Shown here piece by piece: positions 2,448 through 20,890 of a stretch of 22,048 nucleotides of DNA. The notes below the pieces were generated by a model. That model ran no database searches and had not been told where the DNA came from. It saw only the letters and a list, made by a program, of their open reading frames with translations. The translations under genes were made by a program, and so were the position numbers. Where the stretch lies: the IMG/VR virus record IMGVR_UViG_3300030329_006031, positions 1 through 22,048 of that record; one strand, 5' to 3'. Numbering within the stretch: position 1 is the stretch's first letter; each line of letters opens with the position of its first letter. The stretch comes from a virus.

Positions 2448-3169
2448 AAATAGAAGAATTTACGATATGCTTACATTGTGGATGTAACAGAGATGTAACA
2501 GATAAGCAAATAGAAGCCCTTCGACCGCTTGAAAGTAAATATAAAGTTCATTGGAACAATAGAATAGATAGATACCCGGGTATGTATTCTTCCTATTCAC
2601 AATTAATAAATCATTCTATAGCTACATCACATACGGAGTGGTTAATCCTAATAAATGATAGGACATTTCCTACTGTAGATGAGGTTGAAAAGATGATTAA
2701 GCTTTTACAACAAGGAACATCGTGCGTTTTTTTATATAATGTGGGGTTTATGGGATTTGCAAAGGAACTTATAAGAAAAATAGGTTGGTGGGATGAAAGA
2801 TTTATTCATGGCGGTTGGGAAGATAGAGATTGGGTTTTTAGACTTGCAGAAGCAAATCTTTCCTTATATGAGAGTCAAGAAAGCACATATGATTACACGT
2901 GGAAATCCCCATTAAATGTTCCAGGCGGTAATAGCTCAACTCCACATTGGCTGAGCAAGTGGAACCTCAATAATTATAATCATGTTTTAAGAGTTATGCC
3001 CGAGCAGACATATCAACATTGGGATATGTTTTTAGGGGAACCTAGAGAAAACATTAGTAGCTCCTGGACTAGTTGGGGTGACTCTAAATTAAATATCGAT
3101 TTTGGCGGGCCTGGGTCCGGACCGTCGGGGAGTAGTATACTAGCTAACAGAAAAATTATAGACGCGTAA
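2444..3169 (+). CDS. GT2-like GT-A glycosyltransferase
   Basis: Protein of 241 residues with a GT2-like arrangement. An N-terminal strand (TICLHCGCNRD) is followed by N71-D72-R73 after a hydrophobic strand, in the position of a DxD motif. The acceptor-side motif GGWEDRDWVFRL contains E126-D127, typical of the ED/ExD catalytic-base region in GT2 enzymes. The replacement of the first Asp of DxD by Asn is unusual but is seen in some members. The C terminus ends in a Gly/Ser-rich stretch (FGGPGSGPSGSS). It is coupled to the upstream gene through ATGA. Downstream there is a 19-base gap, the largest within the first seven genes of the cluster. Confidence 0.55.
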   Translation: MKIEEFTICLHCGCNRDVTDKQIEALRPLESKYKVHWNNRIDRYPGMYSSYSQLINHSIATSHTEWLILINDRTFPTVDEVEKMIKLLQQGTSCVFLYNVGFMGFAKELIRKIGWWDERFIHGGWEDRDWVFRLAEANLSLYESQESTYDYTWKSPLNVPGGNSSTPHWLSKWNLNNYNHVLRVMPEQTYQHWDMFLGEPRENISSSWTSWGDSKLNIDFGGPGSGPSGSSILANRKIIDA

Positions 3170-3188
3170 CAAGAATAAACCAAAACTT

Positions 3189-4184
3189 ATGAAACCATCT
3201 TCAACAGAAGAATCGCAGTTAAAATTATTATTTGTACCTACTGTTGACCCAACTAAGCAGGGTGACTTACTAGAACTATCTATCTTACATGGATTAAGAT
3301 CATTACTTGGAAAACAGTGTATTGATTATCCTCGAAAAAAGGTAATGTATCATGATTGGTCCGATACAAAAAAGGATACTCTACATGGTAGAGGGTTTAC
3401 CTTATTAACAGAGCCAATACAGGATTTATCTGAAGAAGATCGAACACTGGGTGAGTTTGATGCTATCTTATATGGCTGCGGTCATATGTACGGTGAAAAG
3501 AGTATCGCAGAATATAATAAACTAGCTATTAATAGAAATATATGGGTTTTAGATGGACATGATCTACACGGGCATGCCCCTAAAAAAATAACAATTAAAG
3601 AAGGAGACAAAGAATTAGAAGTTATAGGTTCCCAGTTTCAAAAATCCTTTAAACGAGAATTAGTTGAAGATAATTTACAATTAGTCTACCCAACTGGCTT
3701 CGGTATACCAAAGCATAGAATCAGATCTATAGATCTGACGAAAAAGGACCAACTATTTCAAAAAACTGCTCCGGATAATTCAATTTTTAAACAGGTTAGT
3801 GATATAGGTGGGGGATTTTCACACCATAAATTTACCGAAGAAGAAAAATACTATGATGATTTAAGTAGATCTTGGTTTGGGTTAACATGTAAAAAAGGCG
3901 GATGGGATTGCTTGAGGCACTATGAGATAATAGCTGCTGGGTCGGTCCTTCTTTTTAAAGATTATAACAAAAAACATCCGTTATGTTCACCGCAATGTCT
4001 TCCGTGTTTGAGCTACTCGACTAAGGAAGAATTAGACGATATAACAAATAGACTAGTTGTAAACAATAAACCTACGGATGAATATTGGTTCTATTTATAT
4101 AAACAAAGAGAGTGGTTAAATAATGTTGGAACAACAGAAGCAAGAGCTAGAGAAATAATTAAAACTATAGAAAATAATTTATGA
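3189..4184 (+). CDS. Glycosyltransferase-like protein, probably GT-B fold
   Basis: Protein of 331 residues. The N-terminal part (LKLLFVPTVDPTKQGD) looks like the start of a Rossmann-type domain. The C-terminal part contains SWFGLTCKKGGWDCLRHYE, then IIAAGSVLLF, around residues 227-257. This resembles the donor-binding region of GT-B transferases, where an (R/H)-x-E motif precedes a small residue and a hydrophobic strand, and it is related in layout to the exostosin-like protein at the start of the cluster. No SD is seen, only an A-rich leader. Its stop overlaps the next ATG (ATGA). I cannot name a family with confidence; a non-catalytic homologue is possible. Confidence 0.45.
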   Translation: MKPSSTEESQLKLLFVPTVDPTKQGDLLELSILHGLRSLLGKQCIDYPRKKVMYHDWSDTKKDTLHGRGFTLLTEPIQDLSEEDRTLGEFDAILYGCGHMYGEKSIAEYNKLAINRNIWVLDGHDLHGHAPKKITIKEGDKELEVIGSQFQKSFKRELVEDNLQLVYPTGFGIPKHRIRSIDLTKKDQLFQKTAPDNSIFKQVSDIGGGFSHHKFTEEEKYYDDLSRSWFGLTCKKGGWDCLRHYEIIAAGSVLLFKDYNKKHPLCSPQCLPCLSYSTKEELDDITNRLVVNNKPTDEYWFYLYKQREWLNNVGTTEARAREIIKTIENNL

Positions 4185-5131
4185 AAAAAATACTTATATC
4201 AGGCGGTGCTGGATTCTTAGGCACATACTCTATCGAAAAATATTTAGAAGAAGGATACGATATTACAGTTATTGACAATTTTTCAACTGCAGTTGTAAAA
4301 AATAATGATCCGATATTAGATAATGTTCGATTAATAGAAGACGATATTTTAAATGTAAAATGGACCGATCTAGAAAAATACGATTTAGTTTTACACTTAG
4401 CTAGTCCAGTCGGACCAGCAGGAATTCTTAAACATTCCGGTAAGATGGCGAAATATATTTTGGATGACATCTACTGGGCTATTGAAGGAGCACAACATAA
4501 TAATTGCCCTTTAGTATTTGTTAGTACATCAGAGATTTATGGCTATAGAGAAAAAGCTGTTCTTCTTAAAGAAGAAGATGACAAGCTTCTTGTAGGTGAT
4601 TTTAAAGTTAGAAACGAATACAGTATTGCAAAACTTTTAGCAGAAATTGTTTTATCTAATACTGCTAAAGTAAGTGATCTAAAGTATCAAATTATAAGGC
4701 CGTTTAACATAAGTGGCGCTCGTCAACTTAAAGATGGTGGTTTTGTTCTTCCTACATTTGTAACGCAGTCTTTAAATAAAGATGACATTACTGTTTTTAA
4801 TGACGGTAAACAAATTAGAGCATTTACACATGTTACAGACATTGTAAACGGTATATATCTTACGTCTCAATCTGATTTTAATAAAATTTGGAACGTCGGT
4901 AACCCGGATAATCAATGTACTATTTTAGAAATGGCTGAAATAGTAAAAAGAAAAACACAAACAGAATCAGATATTACTTTTGTAGACCCGAAAACTATTC
5001 ACGGTCCTTTATATGAAGAAGCTTGGGACAAAATTCCTAATCCCGAAAAAATTAACGACAAGCTTGGCTGGGTTGCAAAACATAATGTTGATTATATTAT
5101 TAATGATGTAATTAATTATTATAGTTCATGA
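4181..5131 (+). CDS. NAD-dependent sugar-nucleotide epimerase/dehydratase/decarboxylase (extended SDR)
   Basis: Extended short-chain dehydrogenase of 316 residues. The NAD-binding GGAGFLG motif is at G8-G14. The active-site strand reads STSEIYG (S115-E118) and the catalytic pair is Y147...K151 (NEYSIAK). The substrate-binding side shows RPFNISGAR and a C-terminal RAFTHVTDIV. The STSE strand and RPFN are typical of UDP-glucuronate decarboxylase (UXS/ArnA-type) and of related 4,6-dehydratases, so a decarboxylase or dehydratase acting on a UDP- or dTDP-sugar is the best guess; exact substrate unresolved. It is ATGA-coupled on both sides and directly precedes a nucleotide-sugar dehydrogenase homologue, so the two could act in sequence on a UDP-sugar. 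Confidence 0.75.
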   Translation: MKKILISGGAGFLGTYSIEKYLEEGYDITVIDNFSTAVVKNNDPILDNVRLIEDDILNVKWTDLEKYDLVLHLASPVGPAGILKHSGKMAKYILDDIYWAIEGAQHNNCPLVFVSTSEIYGYREKAVLLKEEDDKLLVGDFKVRNEYSIAKLLAEIVLSNTAKVSDLKYQIIRPFNISGARQLKDGGFVLPTFVTQSLNKDDITVFNDGKQIRAFTHVTDIVNGIYLTSQSDFNKIWNVGNPDNQCTILEMAEIVKRKTQTESDITFVDPKTIHGPLYEEAWDKIPNPEKINDKLGWVAKHNVDYIINDVINYYSS

Positions 5132-5868
5132 AAGATGTAGGGATTATTGGATACGGTGAAATAGGCGAGTCATTAGAAAAATGCTATCTTGGTAAAAATT
5201 TTAAAATAAGCATTGTTGATACCGGTAAAAAAATAAATCAAATAAATGGTAATATAGACATTTTAAATATAGCTATTCCGTTTACTGACCAGCGGCAATT
5301 TAGCAAAATAGTATCTCAATATATTGAGACTTATTCTCCTACACTTACTATTATTCATAGCACCGTTACACCCGGAACAACAAAATTAATTACCGAAATA
5401 ACAAAGGCTAAAGTTGTACATTCTCCTGTAAGAGGTATTCATCCAAATTTATATGAAGGGTTAAAATCTTTTGTCAAGTGTATAGGTGGAGAAGATGCAC
5501 GTGCAGTTGAACTAACAAAACAACACTATAATGAACTAGAAATTAGATACACGGTCTTTAATGGATCTACCGCAACAGAATTAGCTAAAATTCTTTCAAC
5601 AACCTACTACGGTATGTGTATCGCGTTTCATAATGACATTAACAAGCTTTGTAACGACTACGATGTAAATTACGATGAAGTTGCAACGCAGTGGAATAGA
5701 ACTTATAACGAAGGTTATAAAAAACTAGGAATGGACAACGTTGTTCGACCTGTTTTATACCCGCCTAAAAACGGAAAAATTGGTGGCCATTGTGTTATAC
5801 CTAATGCAGAGTTGTGTAAAAAGTTTTTTGATAGTAAAGTATTAGATTATATATTGGAATTAAAATGA
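5128..5868 (+). CDS. Shortened nucleotide-sugar dehydrogenase homologue (UDP-glucose/GDP-mannose dehydrogenase family)
   Basis: Protein of 246 residues matching the N-terminal and central domains of the UDP-glucose/GDP-mannose dehydrogenase family. Seen: GYGEIG (G8-G13) for NAD; HSTVTPGTT (77-85), a family motif normally STVPxGTT; ELAK with K154; and GGHCVIP containing C222, the position of the catalytic Cys in GGHCIP-type members. It ends about 24 residues after that Cys, whereas family members are usually 400 residues or more and carry a third, UDP-binding domain. The Asn four residues after the conserved Lys is replaced by T158. It may therefore be a minimal enzyme, an enzyme with a different substrate, or an inactive homologue. 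It is ATGA-coupled to both neighbours. Confidence 0.7.
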   Translation: MKDVGIIGYGEIGESLEKCYLGKNFKISIVDTGKKINQINGNIDILNIAIPFTDQRQFSKIVSQYIETYSPTLTIIHSTVTPGTTKLITEITKAKVVHSPVRGIHPNLYEGLKSFVKCIGGEDARAVELTKQHYNELEIRYTVFNGSTATELAKILSTTYYGMCIAFHNDINKLCNDYDVNYDEVATQWNRTYNEGYKKLGMDNVVRPVLYPPKNGKIGGHCVIPNAELCKKFFDSKVLDYILELK

Positions 5869-6899
5869 AAACAGCATTAGTATTAGGAGCCGGTGGATTT
5901 ATTGGAAATCATTTAGTTAATCGTCTTAAAGATGATGGTTACTGGGTAAGAGGAGTTGATTTAAAATATCCTGAGTTTTGTAAAACAAAAGCAGATGAAT
6001 TTGTCTATGGAAATGTAGGTGATTTACGAAGCGCTAATAATTGCAATCGAGCTATTCGGTTTGATGGTAAGATGGGCAATTTTTATAAAAGTGTTCCGGA
6101 ACAGTATAAGGAACCTTTCGATGAAATCTATCAGTTAGCAGCTGATATGGGCGGAGCTGGGTTTATTTTTACAGGAGATAACGACGCTGATATTATGCAC
6201 AACTCTGCTACTATTAATCTTAATATTTTAAATGCTGTAAAACAATATAATGAGTATAAAGGTCTTAATAAGACAAAAATATTCTACAGTAGCAGCGCTT
6301 GTATGTACCCAGAACACAATCAGTTAGATCCAGAAAATCCTAACTGTGAAGAATCTTCTGCATACCCAGCAGATCCTGATTCAGAGTATGGATGGGAAAA
6401 ACTCTTTAGTGAAAGGTTATATTTAGCATATAATAGAAACTATGATATACCTGTTAGAGTTGCTCGTTTTCATAATATCTTTGGTCCATTAGGCACGTGG
6501 GAAGGTGGCAGAGAAAAGGCTCCGGCGGCTATCTGTAGAAAAGTAATTCAGTCTAACGGCGAAGTTGAAATCTGGGGATCCGGAGAACAAACAAGAAGCT
6601 TTTTATATATTGATGAATGTGTTGAGGGTATACGACGTGTAATGGAATCAGAATTTAGCGAACCAGTTAATATTGGTTCCGATGAGATGGTTACAATTAA
6701 TGAGCTAGTAGATATTGCCAGTAGCGTTGAAGGAAAAAATATAACTAAAAAACATATTGATGGTCCGTTGGGTGTTGCCGGTAGAAATTCAGACAACAAA
6801 CTTATTAAAGAAAAGATTGGATGGGCTCCAAATTATCCATTATCTAAAGGTATAGAAAAAACGTATAAATGGATAAAGTCGCAGCTTGAAGATAGCTAA
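5865..6899 (+). CDS. GDP-mannose 3,5-epimerase-like enzyme
   Basis: Extended SDR of 344 residues that strongly resembles GDP-mannose 3,5-epimerase (GME), the enzyme that makes GDP-L-galactose (and GDP-L-gulose) from GDP-mannose in the plant ascorbate pathway and in some bacterial polysaccharide pathways. Seen: GAGGFIG at 8-14, AADMGGAGFI, SSSACMYPE with C146, YGWEK with Y175 and K179, FHNIFGPLGTW, and GREKAPAAI with K218. In plant GME the catalytic residues are C145, Y174/K178 and K217, so all four are conserved at nearly identical spacing. The C terminus carries RSFLYIDECVEGI, the usual SDR substrate-side segment. It is ATGA-coupled to the upstream gene. The product would be a GDP-L-sugar donor for one of the cluster's glycosyltransferases. 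Confidence 0.85.
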   Translation: MKTALVLGAGGFIGNHLVNRLKDDGYWVRGVDLKYPEFCKTKADEFVYGNVGDLRSANNCNRAIRFDGKMGNFYKSVPEQYKEPFDEIYQLAADMGGAGFIFTGDNDADIMHNSATINLNILNAVKQYNEYKGLNKTKIFYSSSACMYPEHNQLDPENPNCEESSAYPADPDSEYGWEKLFSERLYLAYNRNYDIPVRVARFHNIFGPLGTWEGGREKAPAAICRKVIQSNGEVEIWGSGEQTRSFLYIDECVEGIRRVMESEFSEPVNIGSDEMVTINELVDIASSVEGKNITKKHIDGPLGVAGRNSDNKLIKEKIGWAPNYPLSKGIEKTYKWIKSQLEDS

Positions 6900-6900
6900 A

Positions 6901-7734
6901 ATGCACTACACTATTACTACACCCTGGTTTGGAAGGACTGGTAACAATATACAATCAATATCTAATGCTATATACTTTTGTCGCTTAAAGGGTTTTAATT
7001 TTCATTCCCCGCCAAATAGTTTTATAGAAGAATTTTCTGAAAATTTTGGAACAGAATCTAATATTTCCTCTCCATTTTTTACTATAAAAGATTTAAATTG
7101 TGATAAGCCCTGCTATATTAAGGACGATATAATGTTTTGTGATATTAGTGATTTAAATTCGCAGAGGAAAGATATTTGTGAAACTTTTATATTACCACGG
7201 CTAAAGATACCATTACTAAAAGATCCTCTTCCTAGTTCAACTCTCGTTGTTCATATACGTGGCGGTGATATTTTTGATTTTAACCCAGCTTATGTTGGAT
7301 TTGAAGGTGAGATTGACAATTTTCCAGGAATGATGGTCCAGAACCCTCTTTGCTTTTATGAGAATTTATTTAAAAATTTTAAATCAGTTTTGATAGTAGC
7401 AGAGGACTTTTCTAATCCCGTAATAAAACATTTACAAAAGAATAAAAAAGTAAAAGTAGTATCTTCTTCAATTGAAGAAGACTTTTCTTTGCTTTTAAGA
7501 GCTAAAAATCTAGCTACTTCAGGCGTAGGGACGTTCGCTATAGCAGCAGCACTCTGTTCTAAAAACATAGAAACCCTTTTTTGTACTAATTTGTTTTATA
7601 CTCACCACTTAAACCCTACAATGCTTGAAGGTAAAATTAATGTGGAGATTAATAACTTAGAAGGTTATATTAAAAGGGGTGAGTGGAAAAATACATTATC
7701 ACAAAGAAAATTAATGGTAACATATAAATGTTAA
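6901..7734 (+). CDS. Fucosyltransferase-like glycosyltransferase
   Basis: Protein of 277 residues from the ATG at 6901, which starts one base after the preceding stop; a TTG five codons upstream is less likely. The segment LVVHIRGGDIF (near residue 115) matches the HxRxGD-type motif of alpha-1,2/alpha-1,6 fucosyltransferases (GT11/GT23 and related), which binds GDP-fucose. The segment SGVGTFAIAAALC further on resembles the later S-x-x-T/S-F nucleotide-binding motif of the same fold. The N terminus (PWFGRTGNNIQSISNAI) resembles the GRLGNQ-like opening of GT11 enzymes. Because it follows a GDP-mannose 3,5-epimerase homologue, a GDP-L-galactose donor is as plausible as GDP-fucose; this is inference. 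It is the last gene of the sugar cluster before a 42-base gap. Confidence 0.6.
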   Translation: MHYTITTPWFGRTGNNIQSISNAIYFCRLKGFNFHSPPNSFIEEFSENFGTESNISSPFFTIKDLNCDKPCYIKDDIMFCDISDLNSQRKDICETFILPRLKIPLLKDPLPSSTLVVHIRGGDIFDFNPAYVGFEGEIDNFPGMMVQNPLCFYENLFKNFKSVLIVAEDFSNPVIKHLQKNKKVKVVSSSIEEDFSLLLRAKNLATSGVGTFAIAAALCSKNIETLFCTNLFYTHHLNPTMLEGKINVEINNLEGYIKRGEWKNTLSQRKLMVTYKC

Positions 7735-7743
7735 TACCATTAC

Positions 7744-7771
7744 TTGAAAATAATCAAACATAGTATATACT
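7744..7771 (+). promoter_or_regulatory. Sigma70-like promoter before the DUF366-like gene
   Basis: TTGAAA at 7744-7749 and TATACT at 7766-7771 are separated by 16 bases; each differs from the bacterial consensus at one position. The -10 lies in a 14-base perfect palindrome (ATAGTATATACTAT, 7760-7773). Transcription would start near 7777-7779, essentially at the ATG. It lies in the 42-base gap that separates the sugar cluster from the next gene block. The region is AT-rich, so a chance match remains possible. Confidence 0.45.
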
Positions 7772-7776
7772 ATAGT

Positions 7777-8358
7777 ATGGTTATTAAGCAGGGCGTTTAC
7801 GACGGTAATTTAATTCATAAGCGATTCGCTTATGAGCATTTTCGAAAAGAAGTATCACCATATGGTAATATTGTTGCGTTTAGAGCACCAATGTATGTAA
7901 AGGATGCTCTTATCGATCTTGAAGATACTCTAAGCGATGACTTTATTCATAGTCAAGATGCTATTAATTTTTGTTGGGAAATTCCTAACTTAGATCCACT
8001 GGGTGCTGTATCATTTCAACGCTTGTTTAATACAGCAGTAGCAAACATATTAGCTAGTATTATCAACAAGCCTATTGTTGTTGAGGGTGATGATCTTATG
8101 GTGCAGGATGAATTTATTGGTAGTGATGAAAAGGTTCGTAAGTCGGGTAAAGTAAGTGTGTCAATTACATACTCTAAAGATGGTATTGCTTTAGGTCATA
8201 CCGGTATTAATATTGTAGCTGGAGATAAAGCACCAGGATTTGCTTATTCTTCAAACCTAGACAAAAAAGCAGCTAACTTTTTTATTAACACTGTTGTTGA
8301 ATATTTTAATGCTGAAGTTGCTGATCAGTTTACTGCAACGACGAAAGTTATTGTATGA
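7777..8358 (+). CDS. DUF366-like protein
   Basis: Protein of 193 residues from the ATG at 7777; an in-frame TTG at 7744 would overlap the predicted promoter and is less likely. The pattern YDGNLIHKRFAYEHF, IVAFRAPMYV, LIDLEDTL, then HSQDAINFCWEIP, QRLF, VEGDDLMV and the late KVSVSITYS...GHTGINI follows the DUF366 family closely (YDG..L...WAY, IVAFRG, MVDLED, S.DM..F..E, QRL, GDD, LSVSIAT, H.GINI). The biochemical role of that family is not established to my knowledge. Its stop overlaps the next ATG (ATGA), linking it to the clamp-loader gene. The predicted promoter suggests separate, probably early, expression. Confidence 0.65.
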   Translation: MVIKQGVYDGNLIHKRFAYEHFRKEVSPYGNIVAFRAPMYVKDALIDLEDTLSDDFIHSQDAINFCWEIPNLDPLGAVSFQRLFNTAVANILASIINKPIVVEGDDLMVQDEFIGSDEKVRKSGKVSVSITYSKDGIALGHTGINIVAGDKAPGFAYSSNLDKKAANFFINTVVEYFNAEVADQFTATTKVIV

Positions 8359-8714
8359 ATTTTTTCCAACTACAAAATAAATTATTTTATTCTAAAAAAG
8401 ATAATGCTGAGTTTTTAGATACAGAAGGTGAACAAGCATTTGTGCCATTTCTTTTTAATCGATGGCTGTCATTTTATAGTAACGATATGTGTGTGTTTAC
8501 TAATGAAACACTTAATAAATTCGGAAGTATATTTGATAATAAGCAAGATGCGTATAAATTATATTACCATTTAATTCCTCGACTTAAATGGAAAAAAATC
8601 TCTTACATCAAAAAAAAGAAAAAAGAGGAGCAAGAAGTAGATTTAGCTGCAATTGCAAAAAATAAAAATATATCTGTAAGAGAGATAAAAATGTATCTAG
8701 ATAACTATGAGTAA
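8355..8714 (+). CDS. 62: DNA polymerase clamp-loader small subunit-like (gp62-type, phage clamp A)
   Basis: Protein of 119 residues that resembles the short gp62-type clamp-loader subunit A of marine T4-like phages. Seen: an N-terminal FFQLQNKLFYSKKD; FVPFLFNRWLSF, where the FNRWLS block is the family's most conserved part; a YKLYYHLIPRLKWKKISYIKKKKKEE segment, matching the pattern Y..l...iPR....i.Y.KK; and a short C-terminal helix (AIAKNKNISVREIKMYLDNY). With gp44 the subunit would load the gp45 sliding clamp. It is shorter than T4 gp62 (187 residues) but in line with marine homologues. Genes 44 and 45 are not in the window, so it stands apart from the usual 45-44-62 cluster. It overlaps the next gene by eight bases. 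Confidence 0.6.
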   Translation: MNFFQLQNKLFYSKKDNAEFLDTEGEQAFVPFLFNRWLSFYSNDMCVFTNETLNKFGSIFDNKQDAYKLYYHLIPRLKWKKISYIKKKKKEEQEVDLAAIAKNKNISVREIKMYLDNYE

Positions 8715-9606
8715 AGCAATTGTAACCGGGGGCGCCGGGTTTATTGGTTCAAATTTAGTAGACAAACTTGTTGGTAGCTACGACAAAGTAATCATTATTG
8801 ATAATGAATCAGCTGATTCAAATGAACAGTTTTATTATAATGAACGCGCTGAAAAACACTTATTAAATATTTGTGACTATAAGCACACTCGTCCTCTATA
8901 TGAAGGAGTTGATTGTGTTTTTCATTTAGCTGCAGAATCGCGAATACAACCAACGCTAGAAAATCCCGTTTTAGCTACACTTACCAATACCTCTGGCACG
9001 TGCACTGTGTTACAATGCGCGAAAGAAGCCGGAGTAAAAAGAGTAATATATAGTTCAACTTCTTCTGCGTACGGGCTTAAAAATAAAATTCCGTTGGTTG
9101 AAACTATGCCGGATGATTGTTTAAATCCATATTCTGTTACAAAGGTTTCTGGCGAAAAGCTCTGCAAAATGTATACTGATTTATTTGGATTAGAGACAGT
9201 TATATTTAGATATTTTAATGTGTATGGTGAACGGCACCCTGTTAAAGGCCAGTATGCACCTGTAATAGGTATTTTTATTAGACAAAAAAATAATGGTGAA
9301 AAGCTGACTATTGTTGGTGATGGATCACAAACACGAGATTTTACTCATGTTTCAGATATTGTTAATGCTAATATTTTAGCCTCCTACTTCAATAACAAAA
9401 AACCAGTTGGGGAGGTAATTAATTTAGGAACCGGTACAAACAACAGTATTAAAGAAATAGCTGAAATGGTAGGAGGTGACTATACGTTTATTCCAGCTAG
9501 AGCCGGTGAGGCGCGTGATACATTGGCTAACACAGATAAAGCTAAAAATCTTCTCGGTTGGAAAGCAAAGATTAGGGTAGAAGATTGGATTAAAACAGCG
9601 ACTTAG
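8707..9606 (+). CDS. UDP-sugar 4-epimerase-like SDR (GalE/Gne-type)
   Basis: Extended SDR of 299 residues. NAD-binding GGAGFIG at G8-G14; HLAAESR at 73-79; active-site strand YSSTSSAYG (115-123); catalytic Y142...K146 in NPYSVTK; RYFNVYG; and a C-terminal RDFTHVSDIVNA. These together are typical of UDP-glucose/UDP-GlcNAc 4-epimerases, with dTDP-glucose 4,6-dehydratase less likely because the strand lacks the D-E pair. It would supply UDP-galactose, UDP-GalNAc or a related sugar. It lies about 1 kb downstream of the main sugar cluster, beyond the DUF366-like and gp62-like genes, and overlaps the latter by eight bases. Confidence 0.8.
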   Translation: MSKAIVTGGAGFIGSNLVDKLVGSYDKVIIIDNESADSNEQFYYNERAEKHLLNICDYKHTRPLYEGVDCVFHLAAESRIQPTLENPVLATLTNTSGTCTVLQCAKEAGVKRVIYSSTSSAYGLKNKIPLVETMPDDCLNPYSVTKVSGEKLCKMYTDLFGLETVIFRYFNVYGERHPVKGQYAPVIGIFIRQKNNGEKLTIVGDGSQTRDFTHVSDIVNANILASYFNNKKPVGEVINLGTGTNNSIKEIAEMVGGDYTFIPARAGEARDTLANTDKAKNLLGWKAKIRVEDWIKTAT

Positions 9607-10746: not shown

Positions 10747-12390
10747 GTGGTAGGCGGGCTTTTAAACAATTTTCCAGACAATTATACCCCAAATTCTTCT
10801 CAAGTAAAGCTATTAAAAAATATCGATCAAGCTTTTCAAGATGGGTATAAATTTGTTGTATGTAATGCTCCAACAGGCTCGGGTAAAAGCTTTATATCAA
10901 AAACTTTAGCTAATGCTTCGGATGAACCATCGCAAGATTTTAAAGATCTAATAACATCATACACAGCGTTTAAGATTGATCAAACTGGATACTATACGCA
11001 TGAAGAAGAATGTGAAGAGCAATATTCAGCTGGTGCGTTTGCGTTAACCATAACAAAAGCTTTACAAGATCAATATAAAAGCTTATTTGAAGGTACAACA
11101 ATACTCAAAGGTAAGAGTAATTATATTAGCACAATTGACTCGGATATTGACGTTGAAATGGAATCGTTAATTATGCCTAAAAATATATTAGAAGATCACA
11201 GAAGGAGACATAAGTGCCCGTATCATAATGATCGAAAAGATGCCCTAATAAACAAATTTGCTGCACTAAACTATAATATGTTTTTTTCTTTACCAAATCA
11301 TGTAAAAAAAAGGCAGTATTTAATTTGTGATGAAGCTGCAGAATTAGAAGATCAATTAGTAAAAGAATTTTCTTGTACTATTAATTTCGAAATGTTAAGT
11401 AAAATGGACGTAGTGGTAAGACCGTTTTACTCAAAAAATACCACAAATGTAGTAAAATGGATTAATAACCTATTACTAGATTTAAGCGACAGAATAGACG
11501 AGCTTCGTGATGTTATCAACACAAGTAATACCAACAATAAAAAATTCTTAGTTGAAACTAGAAAACAAATTGTTGGTTTACGAAATTTACACTCTAAACT
11601 TTCTTTAATTATTGAGACGTGGAACGAAAGTGAATATCTTTTTGAAACAACAAAAGATGGCATTACGTTTATGCCTTTAAAGGTTAATAAGCTATCAAAT
11701 CACCTTTTTAAGTATGCAGATAAAGTAATATTAATGTCAGCTACAATTATTGATCCAGCTAACTTTTGCAAAAGCTTAGGTATAGATCATGGTCAATTTA
11801 AATATGTGGAAGCTGATTCAACTTTTAATGCAAAAGATTCCCCGATATATTGCAACACGAAAGTTAAACTAAATTATCATAACTTAAAACGCAGTTTACC
11901 AAAAGTTGTAGAACAAATAAAACAAATTTGTGAGCATCACAAAAATGATAAAGGTATTATTCATACACATAATAATACAATCACATCTTTCTTATCAAAC
12001 AAATTAGTTGGATCGAGATTTTTAATTAGAGAACCAGGAATCCGTAATGAAGAAATATTGCAACAACATTTGAGTAGTTTGGATCCAACAGTACTAATAT
12101 CACCTTCCATGTCTCACGGTGTTGACTTAAAAGACGATTTAGCTAGATTTCAAATTATTGTCAAGGCGCCATATTTACCAACAAAAGATAAAAGAATTGA
12201 GCGACTTATGAACGACGACTTTAATTGGTATGCAAATAAAATGTTATGCTCGTTAATTCAATCATGCGGTAGAGGCGTAAGATCTAAAAAGGACTACTGC
12301 ACAACCTATATACTAGACGGCGCTATCGTAGAAAGTATTGTTAACAACAAGCATAAGCTCCCGAAATATTTCATCGATAGGTTTTTGTAA
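10747..12390 (+). CDS. DinG/XPD-like superfamily 2 DNA helicase
   Basis: ATP-dependent helicase of 547 residues. Walker A is APTGSGKS at 41-48. Motif II is DEAA near residue 195 (LICDEAAELED). The SAT motif is LMSATI near residue 330. The C-terminal half has SHGVDLKDD and QSCGRGVRSKKD near 505-516, the motif VI form of Rad3/DinG/XPD proteins. The four-Cys iron-sulphur cluster usual between Walker A and motif II is not evident: only CPY in a His/Arg-rich segment (HRRRHKCPYHNDR) and one other Cys are seen. The start is GTG; an in-frame stop lies three codons upstream and no ATG is near. It would act on DNA during replication, repair or recombination. Its stop abuts the late promoter of the next gene. 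Confidence 0.8.
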   Translation: MVGGLLNNFPDNYTPNSSQVKLLKNIDQAFQDGYKFVVCNAPTGSGKSFISKTLANASDEPSQDFKDLITSYTAFKIDQTGYYTHEEECEEQYSAGAFALTITKALQDQYKSLFEGTTILKGKSNYISTIDSDIDVEMESLIMPKNILEDHRRRHKCPYHNDRKDALINKFAALNYNMFFSLPNHVKKRQYLICDEAAELEDQLVKEFSCTINFEMLSKMDVVVRPFYSKNTTNVVKWINNLLLDLSDRIDELRDVINTSNTNNKKFLVETRKQIVGLRNLHSKLSLIIETWNESEYLFETTKDGITFMPLKVNKLSNHLFKYADKVILMSATIIDPANFCKSLGIDHGQFKYVEADSTFNAKDSPIYCNTKVKLNYHNLKRSLPKVVEQIKQICEHHKNDKGIIHTHNNTITSFLSNKLVGSRFLIREPGIRNEEILQQHLSSLDPTVLISPSMSHGVDLKDDLARFQIIVKAPYLPTKDKRIERLMNDDFNWYANKMLCSLIQSCGRGVRSKKDYCTTYILDGAIVESIVNNKHKLPKYFIDRFL

Positions 12391-12396
12391 TAAATA
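12389..12396 (+). promoter_or_regulatory. T4-type late promoter, gp15-like gene
   Basis: AATAAATA, a match to the NATAAATA late-promoter element of T4-like cyanophages (T4: TATAAATA), overlaps the helicase stop and ends nine bases before the ATG at 12406. If transcription starts six bases after the motif, as in T4, the leader is only about four bases. This marks the switch from the replication block to the virion block. Confidence 0.65.
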
Positions 12397-12405
12397 TATA
12401 TACAA

Positions 12406-13614
12406 ATGAAGAAAAGAGCATTTCATTTTGAAGTTAAAAATCTCCTAACGCAATTTATTGCGGCGTTTGATGATGTTGTTATAAGTCGGTGGAATAAAGA
12501 TAGAACTGCAAAATCAAATATTGAAGTTAGGTATGTGTTTGCTCCAAAGCATAGAGTAATGTATGATATCATTAACAAGGCTCAAAATATTACTCTCCCC
12601 GCGGTGGCGGTTAACATAACAAGCATAACACGAGATAATGATAGGGTGTTTAACAAACTAGCACCTTCATATATTTCAACTTCGTATGATGAGAACCCGA
12701 ACAATGTTTCAAAATTTTTAATGCCGGTTCCAATAAATCTTGAAGTTAGTATGTCAATACTAGCTAGATATATGGAAGACGTTGATCAAATTGTATCTAA
12801 TTTTGCCCCCTATAACAACCCTTATATTATATTATCCTGGCCAGTTCCGAAAGCTTTCGGAACTGAATATGACCAAGAAATTAGAAGTGAAGTTTTATGG
12901 TCTGGGCAGCTCGATTATAATACGCCTACAGATACTACGTATAGTGATAAATTTAGAATTACCGTTGATACTACTTTTACTATTAAAGGGTGGTTATTTC
13001 CAGAGAAAAAAGACACCCAAGGTATAATTTATAAAGTAGATAGTAATTTTGTTGCTGTAGATTTAAGGAACAGAATATACAATCCGCTAGATAGAGAAGA
13101 GATTGTAGATAATTTAAGTTACGAACAACAAGGCTACGGGGCATTGTCTGGATACAATGACACTGTACCTACTAACTACTCCGAGATGGTTACTGTATCT
13201 GGCAGACCGGAATTTACTAATATTTTTTACACTGCAACAGGAGCTGCGGTTCAGTTAAGAAACGAAGTACCTATACTTTCTACAATTGATAACAGCTTTA
13301 TTCTTTACGGTAAAAGATTTGATTATAGTAATAATTTTTATCTTAGTGCTGAAAACACAAATAATGTTAACAGCGCTCCAGATCAATTCTTTTCCAACTA
13401 TGAAATTATTACATCAGGTGACACTAACGTGCCAGACATAAGCGGGTATCAACTTGATAATTCTTACTTTACAGTAGCTAATGATAATATTGTAAGTTTT
13501 TACTTTCCTGCTAATACATTAAGTGGACATGGTAACTTTACATTAGTTACGGCTAATGAAGCCGGCTGGGCAACCTCCCACCAAGCCACTAGCTCTATCA
13601 TACACTTAGCATAA
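12406..13614 (+). CDS. 15: Tail sheath stabiliser/completion protein (gp15-like)
   Basis: Virion protein of 402 residues. The first 200 residues follow T4 gp15: an N-terminal FAAFDDVVISRW-type segment, an approximately equal-spaced block ending in MPVPINLEVSMSILARYMED then VDQIVSNFAPYNNPY, comparable with the SPIKMIYELSIFTRYEDD...QIVEQILPYF region of gp15, and a later FTIKGWLFPEKKDTQG that matches the VNGWMYPPVDDAEG region. In T4 a gp15 hexamer caps the tail and joins it to the neck. This protein is about 130 residues longer than T4 gp15, with an extra C-terminal beta-rich, Asn/Ser-rich part. It stands next to gp20, unlike T4, where gp15 is followed by genes 16 and 17. It has its own late promoter. 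Confidence 0.7.
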   Translation: MKKRAFHFEVKNLLTQFIAAFDDVVISRWNKDRTAKSNIEVRYVFAPKHRVMYDIINKAQNITLPAVAVNITSITRDNDRVFNKLAPSYISTSYDENPNNVSKFLMPVPINLEVSMSILARYMEDVDQIVSNFAPYNNPYIILSWPVPKAFGTEYDQEIRSEVLWSGQLDYNTPTDTTYSDKFRITVDTTFTIKGWLFPEKKDTQGIIYKVDSNFVAVDLRNRIYNPLDREEIVDNLSYEQQGYGALSGYNDTVPTNYSEMVTVSGRPEFTNIFYTATGAAVQLRNEVPILSTIDNSFILYGKRFDYSNNFYLSAENTNNVNSAPDQFFSNYEIITSGDTNVPDISGYQLDNSYFTVANDNIVSFYFPANTLSGHGNFTLVTANEAGWATSHQATSSIIHLA

Positions 13615-13617
13615 ATA
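13610..13617 (+). promoter_or_regulatory. T4-type late promoter, gp20
   Basis: CATAAATA overlaps the end of the gp15-like gene and lies eight bases before the gp20 ATG at 13626, giving a predicted leader of about three bases. The spacer TATACAAG resembles the TATATACAA found between the motif and the ATG of the preceding gene. Confidence 0.65.
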
Positions 13618-13625
13618 TATACAAG

Positions 13626-15446
13626 ATGCCTGGAACCGGACCATCAACTAGCTCAAATCAAAATAGTTCTTATGTAACGAACGACGGACGCGCTTCTACT
13701 TTCGGTAGAAATTTAATTCAATATATCCAAAATAGATTGCCTTATGCAACTGATGGAAGAGGCGAAAACGATGCGTTAAATCCAAAATATAAGATCTTTA
13801 AAAAGGCGGGTATGAGAAGAGCCGAAGCGCTAGCTAAAGCTTCAATTTCATCTTCTAACCCTTATAATAATATTCCTATCGGTGACTTCGCAAAAGATTC
13901 TTCTTTTGGTGATGTTATGTATGCAAACTTACAGGATGACAAAGCTGGGAGATTAAGGGATTATAGGATAATGGCTGCGTATTCTGAAGTTGCTGATGCT
14001 TTAGATGAAATTTGTGACGAGACTATTAACCCAGATGATTCGGGTTGGATTACACATTTACATTTTAAAGACATTGATCTTACTATTGACCAAAAAGAAG
14101 AAATTGAAAAACAATTTCATAGGTATGTAGAATATTACGATCTTAAAAACAAGGGATGGCAATACTTTAGACAATTGTTAGTTGAAGGTGAAGTATATTT
14201 TGAACAAATAATTCATGATGGGTATGTTGAAGATGGCGTGTTAGGTGTTATAAACCTTCCAGCTGAAATTATTGATCCTGTATATAATAATATTCAAAAT
14301 ATGTTGGTAAAGGGTTATTTATATAGAAAGCCAATTTTTAGTCAGCATCAGCCAGATAAAGTTGAAAAAATAGAATTTATCCCTATGGATCAAAACCAGA
14401 TTATGTATGTTAATTCTGGTGTATACAATGAAACTAAAAATTTCGTTATTCCGTTTTTGGAGAATGCTAGACGTCCATATAGACAGTTATCACTAATTGA
14501 GGATGCTATTGTTATATATCGGTTAGTTAGAGCTCCGGAGCGATTAGTCTTTAACGTTGATGTGGGTAATATGGCTCCTCCAAAAGCTGAAGCTTATCTT
14601 AAAAAGCTAATTCAAAACTACTGGTCCAGAAAAACATTTGATATGGATCAAGACGACGTGGTTAAAAAGTTTAACCCACAGTCAATGCTTGATGCATTTT
14701 GGTTTGCTAAGAGACAAGGATCTGAAGGCACGCAAGTTACGCAGCTACCCGGCGGTGATAACTTAGGCGAGTTAGCTGATTTAATGTACTTTATTAAAAA
14801 GTTATATAGAGCTCTTAAAGTACCATCAACAAGACTAGATCCTACAGACCAGGCATCTGCAGACGGGTCAACAATTTTACGTGAAGAATTAAAATTTGCA
14901 CGTTTTGTCATGAGACAGCAGCAAAGATTTGCTGCAGGTCTTAGAAAAGGATTTATTACTCATTTAACCCTAATGGGATTATTTGAAAAGTTTGAGCTCA
15001 ACGAACAGAATATTGAAGTTGAATTTAATGTTCCTACTAATTTTTACGAACTTAGGGAAAATCAAAGACTTGAATTAAAACAAAGGAACTTTAACGACTT
15101 AGCTAGTAATGAGTTTGTTTCTACTACTTATGCTCAGAAAAAATACCTAGGCTGGAAAGATAGAGACATATTAGCTAATAGAGAGTTCCTTAGAAAAGAT
15201 GCTGAACTTATGTGGGAGATTGGCCAAATACAAGCAGCAGGACCCGCTTGGAAGGAAATGGCGGTCGCTGGTGAAGTCGCTGAAGGAGATGTTGCTGTTG
15301 GTGGTGAAGGCGGCGGTGTTGGTGGTGGAGGAGGCGGCGCAGCCGACATACCCGAATTCGGCGGTGGTCCCGCTGATGTGGGTGGAGAAGAAGTAGAAGT
15401 AGCTGCTGAAACTGAAGTCGATGCAGATGAAACTGCTGCAGTTTAA
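13626..15446 (+). CDS. 20: Portal vertex protein gp20
   Basis: Portal protein of 606 residues, forming the dodecameric channel through which DNA enters and leaves the head. Recognisable T4 gp20-family segments include DYRIMAAYSEVADALDEICDE near 115-135, VYRLVRAPERLVFNVDVGNM near 300-318, the DQDDVVKKFNPQSMLDAFWF region, TQVTQLPGGDNLGELADLMYF, and STRLDPTDQASADGSTILREE. The first 40 residues are Ser/Asn-rich. The last 60 or so residues are a Gly- and acidic-residue-rich tail with a run of glycines, beyond the usual portal body (T4 gp20: 524 residues). The stop shares the TTAA with the stop of the convergent minus-strand gene. Confidence 0.92.
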   Translation: MPGTGPSTSSNQNSSYVTNDGRASTFGRNLIQYIQNRLPYATDGRGENDALNPKYKIFKKAGMRRAEALAKASISSSNPYNNIPIGDFAKDSSFGDVMYANLQDDKAGRLRDYRIMAAYSEVADALDEICDETINPDDSGWITHLHFKDIDLTIDQKEEIEKQFHRYVEYYDLKNKGWQYFRQLLVEGEVYFEQIIHDGYVEDGVLGVINLPAEIIDPVYNNIQNMLVKGYLYRKPIFSQHQPDKVEKIEFIPMDQNQIMYVNSGVYNETKNFVIPFLENARRPYRQLSLIEDAIVIYRLVRAPERLVFNVDVGNMAPPKAEAYLKKLIQNYWSRKTFDMDQDDVVKKFNPQSMLDAFWFAKRQGSEGTQVTQLPGGDNLGELADLMYFIKKLYRALKVPSTRLDPTDQASADGSTILREELKFARFVMRQQQRFAAGLRKGFITHLTLMGLFEKFELNEQNIEVEFNVPTNFYELRENQRLELKQRNFNDLASNEFVSTTYAQKKYLGWKDRDILANREFLRKDAELMWEIGQIQAAGPAWKEMAVAGEVAEGDVAVGGEGGGVGGGGGGAADIPEFGGGPADVGGEEVEVAAETEVDADETAAV

Positions 15447-15826
15447 CGTGATGGGTTACTAGTAAAGAACTGTGTTCTATAGCAGAGAGGATTTGCTACA
15501 GCTGGATTCGTGACCATTTTAGCCGAAACTTCATCAGCATTTGTAAGCCCCATAAATGTCACACCGTGTAACGGTGTAGCTGCAGCAGCAGCTTTAATTA
15601 ATATACGCTTTTCATCATTAACACTGCCATCTGTCTTTCGTGAATTTTTATCGTATATATAAACATCCTGTGCAGTTGTGTTGTAAATAGTTACCTGTGA
15701 GCATGGTATTGTTGAAAGCGGGTATAGAGCAGTCCCGCCATGAGTACTCTCAAATGAATGACATTCATTTAGGTTGAAATATTCACTTCCAGTATTAGAT
15801 GTTGGGTAATTTGTTTCTGCTGACAT
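15443..15826 (-). CDS. Minus-strand late protein of unknown function, probably virion
   Basis: Protein of 127 residues on the strand opposite to all surrounding head genes. Its start is preceded, six bases upstream on its own strand, by the late-promoter motif AATAAATA, which supports it as a real late gene. The stop lies in a TTAA shared with the stop of gp20. The protein looks beta-rich: VTIYNTTAQDVYIYD, RILIKAAAAATPLHGVTFMG, a few Cys, no signal peptide or membrane segment. Small size and late expression suggest a minor virion or capsid-associated protein; I recognise no named family. Confidence 0.75.
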   Translation of the reverse strand: MSAETNYPTSNTGSEYFNLNECHSFESTHGGTALYPLSTIPCSQVTIYNTTAQDVYIYDKNSRKTDGSVNDEKRILIKAAAAATPLHGVTFMGLTNADEVSAKMVTNPAVANPLCYRTQFFTSNPSR

Positions 15827-15832
15827 ATAAAT

Positions 15833-15840
15833 TATTTATT
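15833..15840 (-). promoter_or_regulatory. T4-type late promoter, minus strand
   Basis: Read on the minus strand this is AATAAATA, six bases before the ATG of the minus-strand gene (start at 15826). It forms one half of a perfect 20-base palindrome (15833-15852) whose other half is the late promoter of the plus-strand gp13-like gene. Confidence 0.65.
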
Positions 15841-15844
15841 CGCG

Positions 15845-15852
15845 AATAAATA
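15845..15852 (+). promoter_or_regulatory. T4-type late promoter, gp13-like gene
   Basis: AATAAATA ends five bases (TTTTT) before the ATG at 15858, so a T4-like start site would fall on the A of the start codon. It is separated by only CGCG from the divergent minus-strand late promoter. Confidence 0.7.
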
Positions 15853-15857
15853 TTTTT

Positions 15858-17042
15858 ATGGCACTTGCATGCAATATTCAACCTCTTTCAGCTTTCTTAT
15901 CGACAAATTTAAATAGTAAAATTGAAACTTACGATAGACTCGGTGATAGAATTAAAAGATCGTTAGGTTACCCATTAGTTAGCTTAGAAATACATACAGA
16001 TCAACTTCGCGAAAACATTCAAATAGCGGTAGAGTATTTTACAAAATATGCAGGTTATACAAGAGAGTATTTAATTTTTGACTCTAATATGTATGAAACT
16101 AATAAAGGTATAAGATTAGATCTATTATATACACTAGCTAATACTGATTTAGATACAAACGCGCAAAAAGTAGCTGGTACTAATCCGCTAGGCCCTGGAG
16201 CAGAATTTTACGGAACCACACCGGAGTCTATCTTTGTGTGTACATCTGCACTACTATCATCTGTTTTTACTTCATCTTCTGCTTTGTCTTCTACCTTCGG
16301 CTCTGGTATAGAAAAATTTGATTTATTTGACCAATCTATATATTCAAATATAACCAGTTATGACGCCTGGGAGAGACCTGCACTTTCTCTTACATCGTTC
16401 GCCTTGAGTGGTTCGTTTAAAGAAAATAAACGTAGCACAATAACATTTGAAGGATCAGCATCTAACTCCATTAATTACCAGAATGTTTACGACTACGATA
16501 TAATGGATTATAGAAAAGTTGTTGATATAGTAGACTTTGAAGAAGGATCTACTACTGGCATTAATACGTTGTTTACATTAGAGCAGACACTAGCTCAACA
16601 AACCTACTTTAGCTATGCAATGGGTAATTATGGATTTGATTTAGTCTCCTGGTATACTTTAAAAGAATGGATAGATACACGTGAAAAAATGTTAGCTATA
16701 CGACGCGATGTAAAATTTGATCCGAGAACTCAATACATGCAAATGTACCCCCAGCCAGGTGGAGATAGATTTTACGGAGTGATAGGTTGTTATTTAGAAC
16801 AACCTATTAGATCAGTTATTATGGAGCAGTGGATATATGAATACGCGCTAGCGTTGTCTATGATAACTATAGGTCGTGTGCGTGGTAAGTTTGGAAATGT
16901 ACAGCTGTTAGGCGGCGGCGCATTAAATTATGATATGCTAGAAAAAGGCGAGGCGAGAAAAGCTGAACTTGAAGAAAAGCTGCTTACTGGTTCGTCTCCA
17001 GGATTAGGAGATGCAGATCCACCAATGTTCTTTGTAGGATGA
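15858..17042 (+). CDS. 13: Neck protein (gp13-like)
   Basis: Virion protein of 394 residues. Near the start, DRIKRSLGYPLVSLEIHTDQ followed by IQIAVEYFTKYAGYTREY matches the opening of gp13-type neck proteins (R..LG.P.V.VEL...Q....I..A...Y). The end matches their C-terminal block: EYALALSMITIGRVRGKF, QLLGGGALNYDML, then a charged helix GEARKAELEEKLL. In T4, gp13 and gp14 close the filled head and provide the tail attachment site. It is about 85 residues longer than T4 gp13 (309), with a Ser/Thr-rich middle insertion near 115-175. No gp14 gene follows; the next gene (ATGA overlap) is gp4-like. Distinguishing gp13 from another neck protein needs a profile search. Confidence 0.65.
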   Translation: MALACNIQPLSAFLSTNLNSKIETYDRLGDRIKRSLGYPLVSLEIHTDQLRENIQIAVEYFTKYAGYTREYLIFDSNMYETNKGIRLDLLYTLANTDLDTNAQKVAGTNPLGPGAEFYGTTPESIFVCTSALLSSVFTSSSALSSTFGSGIEKFDLFDQSIYSNITSYDAWERPALSLTSFALSGSFKENKRSTITFEGSASNSINYQNVYDYDIMDYRKVVDIVDFEEGSTTGINTLFTLEQTLAQQTYFSYAMGNYGFDLVSWYTLKEWIDTREKMLAIRRDVKFDPRTQYMQMYPQPGGDRFYGVIGCYLEQPIRSVIMEQWIYEYALALSMITIGRVRGKFGNVQLLGGGALNYDMLEKGEARKAELEEKLLTGSSPGLGDADPPMFFVG

Positions 17043-17476
17043 GGAAATGGAGACAAGGCATTTTCACTCCTAATAATCCCGATAAATTTATTGGAAATAA
17101 GGCTATATATAGATCCGGTCTAGAGTTAAAGTTTTTTAGATTTTGCGATAATAACCCAAATGTTAAAAAGTGGGGCAGTGAAAACGTTGTAGTACCGTAC
17201 ATTAGTCCATTAGATCATAGAGCACATAGATATTTTGTTGATAATTACATAGAGATATTAGAAGGTAATAATTTAAAAAAATACTTAGTAGAAATAAAGC
17301 CTTCAAAACAAACCAAACCACCTACAACAAAGTATAGAAAAAGGCGACATTTATTATATGAACAGAGAGCTTATGTTATAAATCAAGCAAAATGGGAAGC
17401 AGCGCGCACATATAGTAAGAAAATAGGGTGTGACTTTATTATTTTGACAGAAAAAGAGCTTATTTATAACAAATGA
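17039..17476 (+). CDS. 4: Head completion nuclease-like protein (gp4-like)
   Basis: Protein of 145 residues with the gp4 (gp50/4) head-completion pattern, which is related to TnsA-type PD-(D/E)XK nucleases: E29 in RSGLELKFFRFCD, D68 in YFVDNYIEI, and E85-x-K87 in LVEIKPSKQ. A basic stretch (KYRKRRH) and a C-terminal IGCDFIILTEKEL complete the match. T4 gp4 is about 150 residues. In T4 the protein acts at the end of DNA packaging, before tail joining; its exact activity is unclear. It overlaps the gp13-like gene by four bases (ATGA), so it is coupled to it. Its stop overlaps the late promoter of gp21. Confidence 0.8.
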   Translation: MRKWRQGIFTPNNPDKFIGNKAIYRSGLELKFFRFCDNNPNVKKWGSENVVVPYISPLDHRAHRYFVDNYIEILEGNNLKKYLVEIKPSKQTKPPTTKYRKRRHLLYEQRAYVINQAKWEAARTYSKKIGCDFIILTEKELIYNK

Positions 17477-17483
17477 ATAAATA
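17476..17483 (+). promoter_or_regulatory. T4-type late promoter, gp21
   Basis: AATAAATA begins on the last base of the gp4-like stop codon and ends five bases (ATTGT) before the ATG at 17489. With T4 spacing the transcript would begin at the start codon. Confidence 0.7.
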
Positions 17484-17488
17484 ATTGT

Positions 17489-18154
17489 ATGGCATTGAAA
17501 CTTAACCTGGTTGTAGAAAAACCTGATATAGATGATGAGTTCGAATACATTGAAGAAGAAGTAGATAGAAACTCACCATCTAATCTATATATAAAAGGCC
17601 CTTATATGATGGCTGAAGATGTAAATCGTAACAATCGTATGTACCCTCTAGATGAGTTAGTAAGAGAAGCTGCCCGTTATAACGAAGAAATGGTTGTACC
17701 AGGACGTGCCATGGGAGAGTTAAATCATCCAACTACTGCAGATGTTGATCTCGAAAGAGCATGTCACATGGTAACAGAACTAACACAAGATGGTAATATA
17801 TTTGTTGGTAAGTCTAAAGTTTTATCCACCCCATGTGGTCAAATAGTTAGATCTTTAATTAACGACGGTGTTAAAGTTGGAATGTCATCCCGTGCACTTG
17901 GTACTTTAGAAGAGGGATCCGAACATAACGTTGTTAAAAACATGAAACTTGTAGCAATTGACTGTGTAGCTGATCCTTCTTACCCAAAAGCATTTGTTAA
18001 CGGTATCTTAGAATCTAAGCAATGGGTAATGGTAGACGACAATAAGTACGAAGAAGTCTATGAAAATTTCGAAAAATCGCTGCAAAGGTTGCCAAAAAAG
18101 GAAATAGATTCCTTTTTACGTGACAGAATTCTTAGCTTTATTAAGTCAATTTAA
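17489..18154 (+). CDS. 21: Prohead core protease gp21
   Basis: Serine protease of 221 residues that matures the prohead by cleaving scaffold and capsid proteins. Seen: YIKGPYMMAEDVNRNNRMYP (34-53), the conserved catalytic His in GELNHP (H80), and the nucleophile region VGMSSRALGTL with S133/S134. D158 in AIDCVADPSYP is in about the right place for a third residue. This is the usual gp21 arrangement, and the length is close to T4 gp21 (212). The C terminus is charged (KKEIDSFLRDRILSFIKSI). It has its own late promoter and is followed by the small core protein, as expected for this module. Confidence 0.9.
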   Translation: MALKLNLVVEKPDIDDEFEYIEEEVDRNSPSNLYIKGPYMMAEDVNRNNRMYPLDELVREAARYNEEMVVPGRAMGELNHPTTADVDLERACHMVTELTQDGNIFVGKSKVLSTPCGQIVRSLINDGVKVGMSSRALGTLEEGSEHNVVKNMKLVAIDCVADPSYPKAFVNGILESKQWVMVDDNKYEEVYENFEKSLQRLPKKEIDSFLRDRILSFIKSI

Positions 18155-18160
18155 TAAATA
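18153..18160 (+). promoter_or_regulatory. T4-type late promoter, gp67-like gene
   Basis: AATAAATA overlaps the gp21 stop and ends five bases (ATAAT) before the ATG at 18166. It probably also drives gp22, which has no motif close to its own start. Confidence 0.7.
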
Positions 18161-18315: not shown

Positions 18316-19173
18316 ATGAGCAAGAAAAAAGCATTACCCGAAACAGCAGAAGAGGTGCTAACCGAAGAGTCGGTTAAGGCTATAGAGACTGCTATCGAAG
18401 AAAAAATTCAGCTATCTGTAGAAGCTGCATTAACTAATCAAGATGAGCTTTATGCTGAAAAACTTCAAGATTTAGTAAGTGCAATTGATAAAGATCATAC
18501 TACTAAGCTTAAAAGAGTAGTTGAAGCTGTTGACCATAACAATGCTAGTAAGCTTATTAAAGTAGTTAAGCGCTATGAAAATGAATTAGGTGGACGTGCA
18601 GATCAGTTTAAAACAACTTTAGTTGAAAGTATTTCTGATTATTTAGAAGAGTATTTAGAAGAGTCTGTCCCCACACATGCTATTGAAGAAGCCACGAAGA
18701 ATAGGACTGCTAGAGAAGTGCTTGGTAATTTAAGAAAGGTACTTGCAGTTGACTCTACGCTCATGAGTGAGTCTGTTAAAGAAGCTGTAATGGACGGTAA
18801 GAGCCAAATTGACGAATTAACTAACACAGTCAATAAGCTTGCAAAGGAGAATACGGCACTTAAAGAAGCGTATTCGCAGCAAAGCTCGCAATTAATGTTA
18901 GAAGCTTGGACGGCTAATTTATCAGAGAGCAAGAAAAACTACTTGATTAAGATCTTAGGTGATAAATCACCCAAGTTTATTGAAGAAAATTTTAATTATA
19001 CTGCTAAGTTGTTTGATAGAAAAGAAAAAGAAAGACTTACAGTAATAAAGGAGGAAGCATATAAAAAGCGTAAAGTAAAAGCTGATGCTCCTGTACAACG
19101 AATTTCAGAGAAGAAGGAAGAGAAGAAGCCTTATAACCCCTATTTAGCGGAGTTAGAAAGGCATCACAAATAA
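18316..19173 (+). CDS. 22: Prohead scaffold protein gp22
   Basis: Scaffold core protein of 285 residues, predicted almost entirely helical and rich in Glu, Lys and Ala. Seen: acidic N-terminal helices (ETAEEVLTEESVKAIETAI), repeated DKDHTTKLKRVVEAVDHNNASKLIKVV, a conserved central SDYLEEYLEESVPTHAIEEA, a coiled-coil-like LTNTVNKLAKENTALKEAYSQQ, and a basic C-terminal end with KKEEKKPYNPYLAEL. This is the gp22 pattern, and position between gp21 and gp23 confirms it. It forms the inner core around which gp23 assembles and is later cut by gp21. No SD or NATAAATA motif lies near its ATG; it is probably read from the promoter ahead of the gp67-like gene. Confidence 0.9.
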   Translation: MSKKKALPETAEEVLTEESVKAIETAIEEKIQLSVEAALTNQDELYAEKLQDLVSAIDKDHTTKLKRVVEAVDHNNASKLIKVVKRYENELGGRADQFKTTLVESISDYLEEYLEESVPTHAIEEATKNRTAREVLGNLRKVLAVDSTLMSESVKEAVMDGKSQIDELTNTVNKLAKENTALKEAYSQQSSQLMLEAWTANLSESKKNYLIKILGDKSPKFIEENFNYTAKLFDRKEKERLTVIKEEAYKKRKVKADAPVQRISEKKEEKKPYNPYLAELERHHK

Positions 19174-20882: not shown

Positions 20883-20890
20883 AATAAATA
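20883..20890 (+). promoter_or_regulatory. T4-type late promoter after the terminator
   Basis: AATAAATA ends five bases (ATTAC) before the ATG at 20896. It restarts transcription 32 bases after the T run of the gp23 terminator. The predicted start site falls on the start codon. Confidence 0.7.

Follow-up and report, generated by a model that had tools for sequence, protein, structure and literature searches.

Two genes diverge from a 31-bp intergenic segment in the structural region of the window, the whole 22,048-nucleotide stretch of DNA analysed here, which comes from an uncultured bacterial virus of the ocean (Table 1). The plus-strand gene had been called gp13-like in the original prediction, and its match to PHROG 211 (E 2.8e-16) confirms this. 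Neighbouring genes encode a gp15-like protein, the portal protein gp20, a gp4-like head closure protein, the gp21 protease and the major capsid protein gp23. Upstream of the structural genes, positions 51-9606 are occupied by a long run of genes resembling those for glycosyltransferases and NAD-dependent sugar epimerases/dehydrogenases, as read from their translations only.

The minus-strand gene encodes a small protein of 127 aa. Its homologues occupy the same location in most relatives, and 14 residues are invariant across 48 sequences. The protein belongs to no PHROG or Pfam family and has no sequence match in the PDB. Its AlphaFold2 model is mostly beta, with medium confidence (mean pLDDT 73); Foldseek returned no match with E <0.001, and the best VIA-align Z score (7.6) is at the level expected of unrelated models.

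Sequence comparison places the phage far from isolates. Searches by tblastn among isolated phages with the gp13-like or the 127-aa protein found no relatives; the portal and capsid proteins gave distant matches only (e.g. the capsid is ~34% identical to that of P-SSM2). A host search among 84,980 genomes of bacteria and archaea likewise found no relative. One related sequence used here is IMGVR_UViG_3300029319_009044 (170.9 kb, loci L090-L098; hereafter G001, the 171-kb relative). It has 0 tRNA genes, and the one tmRNA predicted there seems to be a false call.

Between the two genes lies TATTTATTCGCGAATAAATA (15833-15852), a perfect 20-bp palindrome, identical to its own reverse complement as had been claimed; the flanking bases T/T end the symmetry. 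The 20-mer consists of two opposed GAATAAATA 9-mers and a 2-bp middle (GC, 15842-15843). In promoter terms, two G-AATAAATA elements stand back to back, separated by 2 bp, and their octamers are 4 bp apart. The GC middle is the only symmetric part beyond the 9-mers, a 1 in 4 coincidence if those bases are free.

Both strands thus carry an octamer of the T4 late type (consensus TATAAATA in T4, NATAAATA in cyanophages); an A at -13 is found in nine T4 late sites too (PMC2988020). AT-rich segments (TTTTT and ATTTAT) directly follow the two boxes, as in T4 late promoters, and genome-wide base counts agree. The gaps to the two start codons, six bases on the minus and five on the plus strand, are those originally given. 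The T4 late TATA box covers -13 to -6 (PMC2988020), so a box ending five bases before ATG would place +1 on the A of the ATG. A gp55-type late sigma on the host RNA polymerase would recognise G-N-ATAAATA in either direction and start ~5 bases further on, and mRNAs from boxes 5-6 bases away would probably begin at the start codon or one base before it. The two predicted starts are then 31 bp apart; the close spacing expected earlier stands, and its figure of about 32 bases shifts by one.

Table 1. Genes, late-type octamers and predicted start sites in the window
Feature	Position	Strand	Remarks
gp13-like neck protein (head-tail adaptor Ad2)	15858..17042	+	PHROG 211, E 2.8e-16
127-aa small protein, predicted mostly beta	15443..15826	-	Relatives have homologues at this location
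Putative late promoter octamer AATAAATA	15845..15852	+	Would serve the gp13-like gene; G(-14) = 15844; 5 bases to ATG 15858
Putative late promoter octamer AATAAATA	15833..15840	-	Would serve the minus-strand gene; G(-14) = complement of C15841; 6 bases to ATG 15826
Predicted late start (+1)	15858	+	A of ATG, leaderless mRNA; T4 rule applied to the sequence
Predicted late start (+1)	15827	-	One base before ATG; T4 rule
Late octamer AATAAATA	12389..12396	+	9 bases before ATG, gp15-like tail sheath stabiliser
Late octamer CATAAATA	13610..13617	+	8 bases before ATG, gp20-like portal
Late octamer AATAAATA	17476..17483	+	5 bases before ATG, gp21-like head protease; kept in relatives
Late octamer AATAAATA	18153..18160	+	5 bases before ATG (18166), 48-aa ORF; kept in relatives
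Late octamer AATAAATA	20883..20890	+	5 bases before ATG, 254-aa ORF that follows the major capsid gene

The placement of the box is regular across whole genomes. In the 171-kb relative, TAAATA precedes ATG by 5 bases 40 times and by 6 bases 23 times (63 together), most other spacings occurring ~5 times; the reversed-pattern control gave 1+1 matches against the 40 at the 5-base spacing. The forward pattern also exceeds the reversed one in nearly all of 16 other related contigs; the excess is clear in most and weak in a few (e.g. 28 vs 4 in 44 kb but 8 vs 4 in 20 kb). In the 171-kb relative, PHROG assignments of 47 boxed and 60 unboxed proteins separate two classes of genes. Boxes stand before virion and lysis genes (tail sheath, tube, portal, head protease, baseplate, fibres and endolysin), the placement expected of late promoters. 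Unboxed genes serve mainly replication and metabolism (DNA polymerase, clamp loader, helicases, primase and UvsX), a terminase and a baseplate gene being exceptions. Unlike other virion genes, the major capsid gene of the window (start 19270) has an AAGGA-type ribosome site and no late box, and so does the capsid gene of the 171-kb relative (120196).

Recognition of such boxes in T4 involves gp55, and gp55 homologues are encoded by the 171-kb relative and by the near relative G002, which carries this palindrome as well; the evidence comes through relatives, the window being only a 22-kb fragment. BLAST and Pfam gave no match for gp33 or gp45 in the 171-kb relative, where sequence divergence may hide homologues; the PF09116 search detected gp45 of HTVC008M.

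The AATAAATA boxes could instead be translation-initiation signals, i.e. A/U-rich leaders in a host without Shine-Dalgarno sites. They do lie directly before ATG, and Shine-Dalgarno cores are rare in the 171-kb relative, among boxed (4/52) and unboxed genes (14/136) alike. However, the box is the known late promoter of T4 and cyanophages, NATAAATA (PMC2984593, PMC2988020), its 5-6 base spacing is sharp, and it marks mainly virion genes. Moreover, 19/136 unboxed genes of the relative carry TATAAT 5-7 bases before ATG, and a different promoter motif at the equivalent distance indicates a promoter pattern rather than a ribosome site. A translational role in place of a promoter is therefore improbable.

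On the observed sequence, its conservation (see below), the genome-wide placement of the box, the gene classes it marks and the gp55 homologue, the palindrome is very probably two divergent T4-type late promoters placed back to back, with mRNAs that are probably leaderless or carry one extra base. The earlier proposal that each half is a late promoter aimed at its own gene is supported here: 80/80 junctions retain the boxes and their spacing from ATG, the box marks virion genes genome-wide, and near relatives encode a gp55 homologue. Promoter activity, start sites, leaderlessness and mutual exclusion are what we infer from the sequence.

Leaderless genes are marked by a -10 box whose distance from the start codon is 5-7 bases and by the lack of a Shine-Dalgarno site, and boxed genes show both features (the 5-6 base peak and cores in only 4/52). 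If late transcription starts by the T4 rule, the late mRNAs of this virus group probably begin at their first codon. Early mRNAs may be leaderless too, as the TATAAT placement suggests. On balance we favour a broader reading: an abundant, uncultured marine T4-like clade with a leaderless late regulon, a gp55-type box standing 5-6 bases from AUG, and many early genes arranged likewise with TATAAT. Searches of the literature, mostly outside subscription journals, found no account of leaderless late genes in T4-like phages; pelagimyophage late promoters have been described as not predictable by cyanophage rules (PMC7029224). In uncultured marine T4-like phages, the fixed spacing provides an easy criterion for recognising late genes and choosing the right start codon. 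Confirmation of the leaderless reading would mean that late transcription of the T4 type is compatible with mRNAs lacking a leader, and that where phages place their promoters may be shaped by the way their hosts translate.

Comparison of the junction among relatives, suggested in the original prediction, separates what is conserved from what is not. With the gp13-like gene as query, 80 related contigs were found; informative junctions numbered 80 (the window and 79 marine viral contigs). A divergent pair of TAAATA hexamers is present in every one, 5 bases from ATG on each side, except that the minus-side gap is 6 bases in the window's subclade. G(-14) is found at the plus site in 28/28 distinct junction sequences and at the minus site in 16/16 distinct close-spaced sequences. 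The bases between the hexamers are far more variable: their number is 7, 8 or 10 with many different sequences (e.g. TGCCTGAA and TGCTAGAA), and 20 contigs have a wide spacing of 33-47 bp. In most of these 20 the minus strand bears another ORF, 52-55 aa long; four (L024, L025, L040 and L043) carry a homologue of the 127-aa protein. The CGCG-centred palindromic core occurs in 11 of the 80 junctions and 2 of the 28 distinct sequences. Both half sites thus persist throughout and the core does not; the gene pair is kept where the palindrome is lost, one half of what the original prediction had itself named as counting against it.

These data bear on the idea that a dimeric regulator binds the palindrome as its operator, or that the symmetric core works as a switch choosing between the two genes. 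Perfect symmetry speaks for such a role, as do the invariance of the whole 31-bp segment in the window's subclade and the occurrence of the same 20-mer on a second sequence background (L056, L058, L113, L114 and L127). Yet the palindromic core is missing in 69/80 junctions with the same gene arrangement, the spacer length varies even among close-spaced junctions (7-10 bp) as well as in the widely spaced ones, and the promoter 9-mer accounts for all symmetry outside the 2-bp middle. With the core so rarely retained, a conserved palindromic operator was rejected, and the operator or switch explanation is very unlikely. A bidirectional terminator or RNA hairpin is scarcely credible: palindromes can fold, but the predicted fold is no more stable than those of shuffles (z 0.52), the stem is AT-rich and it lies upstream of both genes.

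Because both boxes are kept in all junctions while the core is kept in only 11, the conserved element is, by this comparison, the promoter pair, and the palindrome a by-product of abutting promoters. It would arise where two G-AATAAATA promoters flank a 2-bp middle that is by chance GC. The subclade of the window adds one qualification. All 31/31 intergenic bases are identical there, while fourfold sites of the gp13-like gene differ by 29-55% (pairs of distinct sequences); the segment may therefore be under extra constraint at the core or have been exchanged recently.

The length of the palindrome is a poor guide to its function. Markov models (first- and second-order) predict 0.03-0.045 palindromes of at least 20 bp per window; three are observed, two of them elsewhere and within genes, so length by itself says little. 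The 20-mer itself, allowing up to 3 mismatches, occurs once in the window and in 0 of 100 shuffles. Palindromes of at least 18 bp are in excess generally (4 vs 0.13 from Markov models). The longest, CAGTTCCGAAAGCTTTCGGAACTG (12842-12865), is a perfect 24-bp palindrome within the gp15-like gene; none was expected by chance (200 simulated windows), and it is not conserved in relatives. Two more perfect palindromes (7462-7481, 20 bp; 3721-3738, 18 bp) lie inside ORFs.

Searches of IMG/VR gave a similar picture. The exact 20-mer occurs in 11 contigs, and every one inspected has it at this gene pair. The back-to-back pattern CAT-N5-TATTTA-N8-TAAATA-N5-ATG matches 102 stretches, against 4 for a shifted-hexamer control. 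Among 100 matches read in fetched loci, 55 are this gene pair and the remaining 45 are mostly other gene pairs; only 1 of these 45 has a palindromic middle. The 171-kb relative has five divergent late pairs.

How the two promoters might share so little DNA follows from the predicted mRNAs. With no room needed for 5' leaders or ribosome sites, two promoters could pack into the 31 bp found here as a symmetric sequence and, more generally, into 29-32 bp; if so, late gene pairs can share ~30 bp with back-to-back promoters. One polymerase would cover both boxes, and the two directions would take turns on one DNA copy. Simultaneous occupancy of both promoters is physically unlikely, and the earlier statement that two polymerases probably cannot bind at once is plausible from the size of RNA polymerase. 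The accompanying suggestion of balanced expression or a switch found no support in the comparison, because the spacing is altered in many relatives. Mutual exclusion has been demonstrated in E. coli for bidirectional promoters of related geometry, which interfere with each other only under strong transcription (PMC12825309).

The E. coli bidirectional promoters of Warman et al. share or overlap a -10 element, with a typical distance between starts of 10, 18 or 23 bp, most often 18 (PMC12825309). They resemble the present junction in symmetric sequence, divergent starts and use by one polymerase at a time. They differ in that two separate octamers, 4 bp apart, are found here, the distance between the predicted starts is 31 bp, and the sigma factor would be a late one of the phage; the junction is thus not a bidirectional promoter in their sense.

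The closest mechanistic parallel is T4, whose late promoters (TATAAATA, gp55/gp33/gp45) share with the present ones the octamer core, the virion genes, a gp55 homologue and the AT-rich downstream stretch. T4 even has an overlapping palindromic pair of late boxes, TATTTATAAATA, between the diverging genes 26 and 51. Symmetric late promoter pairs therefore exist in T4, and the difference here is the tight coupling to start codons. The T4 box lies mostly 21-29 bases before ATG (ATAAATA in two segments, 84 kb), leaving a leader with a ribosome site, whereas the distance here is 5-6 bases. Because leaders require it, the close divergent T4 pairs 4/53 and inh/segE are crossed, their boxes facing each other across the leaders; here the boxes are back to back. 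Cyanophage late promoters (S-PM2, Syn9 and P-SSM2) follow NATAAATA with a relaxed first base (PMC2984593), as do the boxes here. The boxes of P-SSM2 peak 21-25 bases upstream of ATG (49-kb structural region), again unlike the 5-6 bases seen here. At 5-6 bases, whole genomes of T4 (12 vs 8) and P-SSM2 (13 vs 7) show little excess of the forward pattern over the control.

The cultured Pelagibacter phage HTVC008M (NC_020484) is more similar in spacing. TAAATA peaks there 5 bases before ATG (14 vs ~3 per other spacing), and back-to-back boxes at 18914-18945 lie 5 bases from each ATG, between genes for a DNA end protector (gp2-like) and a head closure protein (gp4-like). HTVC008M differs in its weaker genome-wide signal, in the gene pair and in lacking the palindrome; its gp2/gp4 junction nevertheless provides a testable model of the back-to-back arrangement.
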